Below, piece after piece: positions 18,158 through 33,483 of a stretch of 33,995 nucleotides of DNA. Each line of letters opens with the position of its first letter. Positions within the stretch are counted from its first letter, which is position 1. The stretch lies in assembly GCA_003224725.1 (NCBI GenBank), contig QHZQ01000005.1, positions 1 to 33,995 of the forward strand, given 5' to 3'. The position numbers and the translations under genes are program-made. The DNA is from Acidobacteriota bacterium. GTDB taxonomy: Bacteria; Acidobacteriota; Terriglobia; Versatilivoradales; Versatilivoraceae. The notes beneath the pieces were generated by a model, which was not told the DNA's origin, made no database searches, and worked only from the letters and a program-made list of their open reading frames with translations.

Positions 18158-18290
18158 TCTCGGCGGTACCACCGAGGATGAAATGTATATTCCCCTCCCC
18201 CGGAGGGGCGCAGGGGTGGGTTGTGGCGAACCGGAGGACCCACCCCCGAAGGCTGACGCCTTCTGCCCCTCCCCAGAGGGGATTTTCAGA
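18158..18290. repeat. GC-rich multi-hairpin palindromic element (REP/BIME-like)
   Basis: Successive inverted repeats: CTCGGcGGTACCaCCGAG; CCCCTCCcccGGAGGGG; GGGGTGGGT...ACCCACCCC; GAAGGCtgacGCCTTC; CCCCTCcccaGAGGGG, all between the TPR stop and the galU RBS. Confidence 0.7.
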
Positions 18291-18299
18291 GGAGTCTTC

Positions 18300-31061: not shown

Positions 31062-31526
31062 GTGCCTAACACCATTCAAGGAAACCTCAATTCAACCGGA
31101 ATAAAGTTCGCGATTGTGGCGAGCCGTTTCAATGATTTTATAACCAGTCGTCTTCTGAGTGGAGCCTTGGACGCTTTGGAAAGAACAGGGGCTTCGGAGG
31201 CTAACATTGCAGTCATCAAAGTGCCTGGCTCATTTGAAATTCCCTTGGTTGCAAAGAAGCTGGCGCACACCAAGAAGTATGACGCCATCATTTGTTTAGG
31301 CACCCTAATACGAGGAGAAACCCCCCATTTCGAATATATCAGCAACGAAGTGACTAAGGGAATAGCCACAGTTTCGCTGGAAGCGGGAATTCCGGTGGCC
31401 TTTGGCGTTCTGACAGCCGACACGGTGGAGCAGGCCATTGATCGAGCCGGCCTTAAATCTGGAAATAAGGGATTTGAAGCCGCCATGTCAGCGGTAGAAA
31501 TGGTCAATCTTATCAAGCAACTTTAG
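31062..31526 (+). CDS. ribH: 6,7-dimethyl-8-ribityllumazine synthase (GTG start)
   Basis: 154 aa; [80 protein letters not shown]. Confidence 0.95.
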
Positions 31527-31536
31527 GGTACCGGCA

Positions 31537-31922
31537 ATGGGTGGAAGAAGGAGAGGACGTGAGCTTGCTTTACAAATGTTGTTTCAATGGGATCTATCCA
31601 AAGACTCGTTGACTAATGTCCGCGGCACTTTTTGGACCTTGAACAAAGATGTAGAGGAAGAGGTGCGGTCCTTTGCTGACCATCTGTGCAGTGGTACAGC
31701 CGAACAAATTGAAAAGATCGATCTGCTGCTTGCCCGGCACGCCGAGCACTGGCGTGTCTCGAGAATGGCCGCCGTGGACCGAAATATCTTACGGTTAGCG
31801 ACTTTTTAATTGTTGTTTGAGTTTCAAACGCCCAGAGCCGTTATCATCAATGAGGCGCTGGAGGTTGCGCGCAAATCTTTATCAACGGAATCCTGGATAG
31901 TATCCGTAAAGAGAGCGAATAG
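31537..31922 (+). pseudogene. nusB: Transcription antitermination factor NusB, disrupted by premature stop plus frameshifting deletion
   Basis: N-part MGGRRRGRELALQMLFQWDLS...RMAAVDRNILRLATF then TAA (31807-31809); same frame continues LLFEFQTPRAVIINEALEVARK; C-terminus FINGILDSIRKESE* is encoded in another frame at 31878-31922. Confidence 0.85.
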
Positions 31923-31929
31923 CCGCGGT

Positions 31930-33483
31930 ATGACGAGGGATGCACGCTTGACCGAATCCACACATGACCAGGACCTGGTAGCTCAGCGTTACCTAAAATT
32001 AGAAAAAATCAAAGAGTTAGGACATTCTGCTTACCCGCATCGTTACGATTTTACTCACACGCTTCGTCAAATTCTAAGCCGGTATCAGAACTATTCGCGA
32101 GAGCAGTTGGATGCTGAGAAAATTCATGTCCGTATTTGTGGCAGGCTGGTGGCCCTCCGAGGACATGGTAAAGCTGGTTTTTCTCATATTTCCGACGGGG
32201 ATAATCGCTTGCAAATTTACACGCGGCTGGACGCTGTGGGACCGAAGAACTTTGAGCTTTACGGTTTGCTCGACATCGGCGACTTCATTGGAGTGGAAGG
32301 GTTTTTGTTTCGCACCAAGACCAATGAACTGACAGTGCACGCCTCAAACATCAAATTTCTCGCCAAATCGTTGCTCCCGTTGCCGGAAAAGTGGCATGGC
32401 TTGACGGACGTGGAGATTCGCTATCGTCAGCGTTATCTTGATCTGATGGTCAACAAGGACGTGAGAGAGGTTTTTATGGTGAGGAGTAAAATTATTAGGG
32501 AGATGAGAAACTTTTTCGACGAGCTGGGTTACATCGAAGTGGAAACCCCCATGATGCAGCCTATGGCCGGCGGAGCGACGGCTCGTCCTTTCAAGACTCA
32601 TCATAATGCTTTGGACATGGACTTGTACCTGCGAATTGCCCCTGAGCTTTACTTGAAACGGTTGATCGTAGGTCAATTGGAAAGAGTCTACGAGATTAAC
32701 CGCAATTTTCGCAACGAAGGAATTTCTACCCAGCACAATCCAGAATTTACCATGCTGGAGTTTTATCAGTCTTATAGCGATTATCGCGACCTGATGGATT
32801 TGACAGAAACCTTGATGAAACGTTTGGCTGAGCGAATTCTGGGAAAAATGGAAGTCGAGTTTGACGGAGAAAAGATCTCTTTAGCCAGTTGGTCTCGGTA
32901 TTCTCTCAAAGAAGCCCTTCTCAAATACTGGCCGGAAGAATGTCCGCCAAGGCCTGAAATCAAAGACCTGGAGGAGTTCGCCCGGCTGCAGCAACTCTCC
33001 ATTCGCTGGAATGCCTATGCAGCGGCGCATGCATTGGAAACCGTTCCTGTAAACCAGGATGTTTCCAGAGGAGAAATGCAGGGAGCTTTGTTTGAGACTG
33101 TCGTCGAAAGATTCCTATTGCAACCCACCCTTATTTACGACTATCCGATCGAGTTATCACCCTTGAGCAAAACCAAAGCCGATGACCCTGCGCTGGTCGA
33201 GAGGTTTGAGCTCTACATTGGGCGAATGGAGATTGCCAATGCTTACAGTGAGCTGAACGATCCGGAAGAACAGAAAAGAAGGTTCGAATCTCAGGCGGCT
33301 GAATGGGAAAAAGGAGACGAAGAAGCTCACCAAATGGATTCAGACTACGTCCGGGCCTTGCGCTACGGAATGCCTCCTGCCGCCGGTGAAGGTATCGGGA
33401 TTGATCGTTTGGCGATGCTCTTTACCAATTCCCGTTCCATTCGCGATGTCATTCTCTTTCCTCATATGCGACCTGAAAAATAG
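31930..33483 (+). CDS. lysS: Lysyl-tRNA synthetase, class II
   Basis: YRQRYLDLMVNKDVREVFMVRSKIIREMRNFFDELGYIEVETPMMQPMAGGATARPF, RNFRNEGISTQHNPEFTMLEFYQSYSDY, GEGIGIDRLAMLFTNSRSIRDVILFPHMRPEK; ORF-track start 31810 actually takes in the nusB 3' part. Confidence 0.95.
   Translation: MTRDARLTESTHDQDLVAQRYLKLEKIKELGHSAYPHRYDFTHTLRQILSRYQNYSREQLDAEKIHVRICGRLVALRGHGKAGFSHISDGDNRLQIYTRLDAVGPKNFELYGLLDIGDFIGVEGFLFRTKTNELTVHASNIKFLAKSLLPLPEKWHGLTDVEIRYRQRYLDLMVNKDVREVFMVRSKIIREMRNFFDELGYIEVETPMMQPMAGGATARPFKTHHNALDMDLYLRIAPELYLKRLIVGQLERVYEINRNFRNEGISTQHNPEFTMLEFYQSYSDYRDLMDLTETLMKRLAERILGKMEVEFDGEKISLASWSRYSLKEALLKYWPEECPPRPEIKDLEEFARLQQLSIRWNAYAAAHALETVPVNQDVSRGEMQGALFETVVERFLLQPTLIYDYPIELSPLSKTKADDPALVERFELYIGRMEIANAYSELNDPEEQKRRFESQAAEWEKGDEEAHQMDSDYVRALRYGMPPAAGEGIGIDRLAMLFTNSRSIRDVILFPHMRPEK

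Follow-up and report, generated by a model that had tools for sequence, protein, structure and literature searches.

The nusB Locus and Its Two Lesions

The question raised by this locus is whether an acidobacterium has recently lost the transcription factor NusB, or whether its nusB gene was damaged only in the assembled sequence. The gene occupies positions 31537-31922 of a 33,995-nt stretch of contig QHZQ01000005.1, referred to here as the window, and all of the features described are on its forward strand. It is preceded by ribH (lumazine synthase; 31062-31526), intact by comparison with a sister species of the same genus, and followed by lysS (lysyl-tRNA synthetase; 31930-33483), also intact, as its open frame indicates when set against the sister. 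From the ATG at 31537 there are 90 readable codons, MGGRRRG...AVDRNILRLATF, up to a premature TAA (5' part, 31537-31809; TAA at 31807-31809), after which the same frame continues as LLFEFQTPRAVIINEALEVARK (31810-31876) and stays conserved until a deletion. Past the junction at 31876-31877, the sequence TTTATCAACGGAATCCTGGATAG... (FINGILDSIRKESE*) is in another frame (31877-31922), as seen from the frame itself and from the same-genus copy, and it ends at the original nusB stop (TAG, 31920-31922), 7 nt 5' of the ATG at 31930. The 90-aa part matched the Pfam NusB profile (PF01029) at 8e-19 (68.7 bits, above the Pfam cut-off of 23.1; profile positions 3-91), and the piece after the stop had a weak match to profile positions 93-118. 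Because of these two matches the identity of the broken frame as NusB, judged from its sequence, is beyond chance.

Comparison with the intact, 135-aa nusB of the same genus bore out both of the lesions claimed by the original prediction. Codon 91 is GAA in that copy and TAA in the window, and every one of the 29 NusB proteins aligned has Glu at this position, in keeping with the proposed Glu-to-stop change. Exactly 22 nt are absent between 31876 and 31877, a clean, frame-breaking loss that agrees with the roughly eight residues said to be missing near the C-terminus. The junction has no N and, as judged by the sister sequence, no microhomology. All of the anomalies, namely the E91 stop, a two-base T96F change and the 22-nt deletion, are inside ~70 nt. 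The deletion also brings the post-stop part of nusB into the register of lysS, producing a 661-codon frame interrupted by the TAA alone; this shared register is a 1-in-3 accident.

Additional variations were noted around and outside the gene. The sister has ACG at the position of the window lysS ATG (31930), and the conserved lysS start may for this reason be the TTG at 31948. The sister lysS (L032:3494-3521) is without 36 nt in frame (12 residues) that are present in the window and in other family genomes. Two dispersed repeats were found in the window: one of ~95 bp (686-781) that is matched about 20 times in the sister genome, and one of ~130 bp (18161-18295, CCCCTCCCCCGGAGGGG...) with >35 matches across that genome, located directly upstream of a nucleotidyltransferase (galU-like) gene.

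Intact nusB Genes in Relatives

The host genome is a 6.63-Mb draft of 763 contigs, 88.7% complete, and was sampled as stretches totaling 561 kb. Most of the named relatives recovered by protein search were metagenome assemblies of acidobacteria; the one from the same genus is "Acidobacteria bacterium isolate gp11 AA58". In the sister species (L032/L112), NusB has 90% identity to the window protein over the first 90 residues, and the ribH-nusB-lysS order is common to both. Full-length nusB frames were present in 28 more distant relatives, and among the family matches over the cut-off the window nusB was the sole one with an internal stop. Hence the broken architecture, whose possible occurrence in close relatives the original prediction had raised, is not shared by them. 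As a pseudogene would, the window gene has lesions that disable it where a close relative keeps the orthologue intact.

Each of the family genomes carries a single nusB in addition to RsmB. The 88.7%-complete draft gave a single NusB match, with no second nusB among its contigs. A phylum-wide count gave 394 of 396, a number that is not specific to nusB because RsmB carries the same domain. Similarly, nusB was not found in G006, G011, G041 and G043, which we judged uninformative because ribH was not found there either. A literature search for published nusB pseudogenes gave unrelated pseudogene papers only.

The Truncated Product and Its Target

Against the NCBIfam NusB model (TIGR01951), the 90-aa product scored 74.9 bits, below the equivalog cut-off of 88.35, while the sister protein scored 133.8 bits. 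Structure prediction rendered the full-length sister NusB as seven helices, from 2-21 to 117-134, matching solved NusB-NusE-boxA structures (PDB 1tzt, 3d3b and 3r2c are listed for NusB). On that model the 90-aa product would stop at residue 90, within the helix 79-94; the remainder of helix 5 would be missing, as would helices 6-7 entirely, which falls short of the two-bundle, seven-helix fold. The invariant E91, P99, E106 and E109 are absent from the fragment. Its own model retains helices 1-4 at high confidence, which is no evidence of stability.

NusB forms a heterodimer with S10 (NusE) that reads boxA on pre-rRNA. BoxA-like elements of the form TCTTTGANAACT...TAAGACCAGCC occur in four family genomes, and in three they were seen ~80-90 nt upstream of 16S. 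Because such elements stand in rRNA leaders of family genomes, the family should have a target that NusB reads. The rRNA genes and leader of the host genome itself are absent from its assembly.

Constraint on nusB and the Age of the Lesions

Selection has left little sign of decay in the rest of the gene. The dN/dS of nusB between the window and the sister was 0.097, similar to that of neighboring genes, and over the 113 readable codons the stop was the sole window-only change at outgroup-invariant sites, with no missense. These two results indicate that any loss of nusB would be very recent. Purifying selection acted on nusB until very recently. The relaxed constraint by which pseudogenes are also recognized was not found in the remaining nusB sequence, and it would be expected only after an old loss. 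Two lesions can arise in little neutral time, in agreement with the low dN/dS. Most of the amino-acid differences between the window and sister NusB are sister-side changes. Of 62 outgroup-invariant sites in NusB, 5 are changed in the sister, versus 8 of 364 in ribH and lysS together (Fisher p = 0.03, one of several comparisons).

Decay of rsmB in the Genus

RsmB is the other NusB-fold protein. Its gene, for a 16S rRNA m5C methyltransferase, persists in both species of the genus only as an eroded relic flanked by fmt and a desaturase gene (L171:8254-8637 on contig C492 of the host genome; L241:6867-7247 in the sister), and the breakpoints differ between the two. Strong full-domain rsmB matches were present in ten other family genomes. 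Since rsmB is a genuine eroded relic in both species, this lineage does lose NusB-fold genes, which speaks for a real loss of nusB. In the host and sister stretches G+C was 49-52% and ORF coverage about 0.81-0.88, compared to 58-59% and 0.88-0.90 in G003 and G009; the lower values in the genus fit slackened selection, small as the samples are. A broader hypothesis is that this genus is in the course of discarding its rRNA factors of the NusB fold, rsmB having decayed before or around the species split, the sister NusB now drifting and NusB having just been lost here. We consider this unlikely; if true, it would give a free-living bacterium that has a large genome yet lacks NusB-dependent rRNA antitermination.

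Null Allele or Assembly Defect

Overall, we hold a null allele and an assembly defect to be almost equally likely. We lean slightly towards a null allele that is real and very recent, which we tentatively place just under an even chance. On this reading the lesions would be present in the organism itself, and the only detected nusB would be inactivated by the Glu91-to-stop change together with the 22-nt deletion, and its C-terminal third could not be translated in frame. The expected product would be a 90-aa fragment in which the two-bundle fold is predicted to lack helices 6-7 and the last part of helix 5. Such a fragment would not be expected to pair with S10 (NusE) in the heterodimer that recognizes boxA and would probably be inactive, and rRNA antitermination and chaperoning would presumably be lost or weakened. 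Since E. coli nusB mutants are viable, though cold-sensitive, the organism could by analogy survive without NusB. Apart from the rsmB relics, we count in favor of a null allele the extra changes of the sister NusB at conserved sites.

The main rival, which we regard as a serious possibility at somewhat under an even chance, is that nusB is intact in the organism and that thin or strain-mixed coverage gave rise to a mis-joined gap, seen as the 22-nt loss, and to wrong adjacent bases including the TAA. The draft is fragmented. Its N runs occur approximately every 20 kb with lengths that, where they could be checked, are wrong relative to the sister (38 N for 21 nt expected, 6 N for 14), and they break reading frames even at 1 N. 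The nusB junction without microhomology, the clustering of the lesions as a local assembly fault would give, and the pristine readable codons all suit such a fault, and we count the clustering, the lack of missense and the mis-sized scaffold gaps against a null allele. Counted with them is a deletion in rpe (ribulose-phosphate 3-epimerase; L171:10696-11327, contig C492), where 43 nt are missing with no N, breaking the frame of an otherwise conserved gene. Low-coverage assembly is documented to create spurious pseudogenes through false stops and frameshifts (Cooley and Wright 2024, PMC11017572). On the other side, not one N occurs in the 34 kb of the window and ~20 of its other genes have no internal stop relative to the sister, with lysS open, and for these reasons the general sequence quality is good. 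Conserved genes are free of 1-2 nt frameshifts, and a base error to a stop would have to coincide with a lost stretch. The smallest marked scaffold joins still have 1 N and the nusB junction none, so k-mers spanning the junction are probably present in the reads. A survey of breaks, with the complete family genome G009 and further relatives as references, covered 48 comparable places, and the only N-free breaks in clear core genes were those of nusB, rsmB and rpe. Breaks in mlaD/mlaF-like genes were dismissed as gaps, as they coincide with N runs. A codon-usage scan for frame switches scored too few cases for use.

The remaining readings fared worse. That a second, intact nusB replaces the broken gene from the unassembled 11% or so of the genome is very improbable; the incompleteness of the draft leaves room for it and is counted against a null allele, but family genomes carry just the one nusB beside RsmB. 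More improbable again is that the N-terminal fragment of 90 aa functions as a short NusB. Its retained helices 1-4 would favor this, but the score below the TIGR01951 cut-off and the loss of later helices and invariant residues argue against it; all 29 aligned relatives and the other over-cut-off family matches are full length, leaving no precedent among the relatives examined. Least credible is functional recoding or read-through, in which an amino acid would be inserted at the TAA or NusB would be made as a fusion with LysS. The frame would then be open for 661 codons, still running into lysS, but the missing segment has conserved NusB residues and the in-frame arrangement needs nothing beyond chance. 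We rejected recoding and fusion on two grounds: the true C-terminus lies in a different frame, and the arrangement is found in no relative. Of the readings offered by the original prediction, recoding and a functional fragment are unsupported and no second copy was found in the 88.7%-complete draft; recent decay and assembly error are both still plausible.

Comparison with Known Systems

The window gene is a broken gene of an ordinary kind, whether its loss was very recent or the damage arose during assembly; it is new only as an instance and involves no new mechanism. The broken nusB is of interest only if confirmed by reads. Should the very recent null allele be real, it would show a free-living bacterium shortly after the loss of an rRNA transcription factor that is broadly conserved, and one could ask there how rRNA synthesis manages without NusB. 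Should it be an artefact, nusB and rpe would illustrate how stop codons and short deletions that carry no mark can make a draft metagenome look as if core genes had been lost.

In comparison to the NusB of E. coli and Thermotoga (PF01029, TIGR01951; 1tzt, 3d3b, 3r2c), the window gene is orthologous by sequence and by the ribH-nusB-lysS order that it shares with the sister; its frame, however, is broken twice, leaving 90 aa versus about 135 and no C-terminal bundle. The nusB mutants of E. coli are viable and cold-sensitive with defective rRNA maturation, according to PMC4807359, which cites Taura 1992, and they would resemble the present case in that NusB loss can be survived; those are laboratory mutants in another phylum. 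In the spurious pseudogenes of low-coverage assemblies (PMC11017572), too, a conserved gene present in one copy carries an internal stop and an indel and comes from a fragmented draft, but the window contig is otherwise clean and N-free. Recent bacterial housekeeping pseudogenes have the same pairing of a nonsense change and a frameshifting deletion in a gene that is intact in a sister species, and the window nusB differs from them in that its codons show no relaxed constraint yet.
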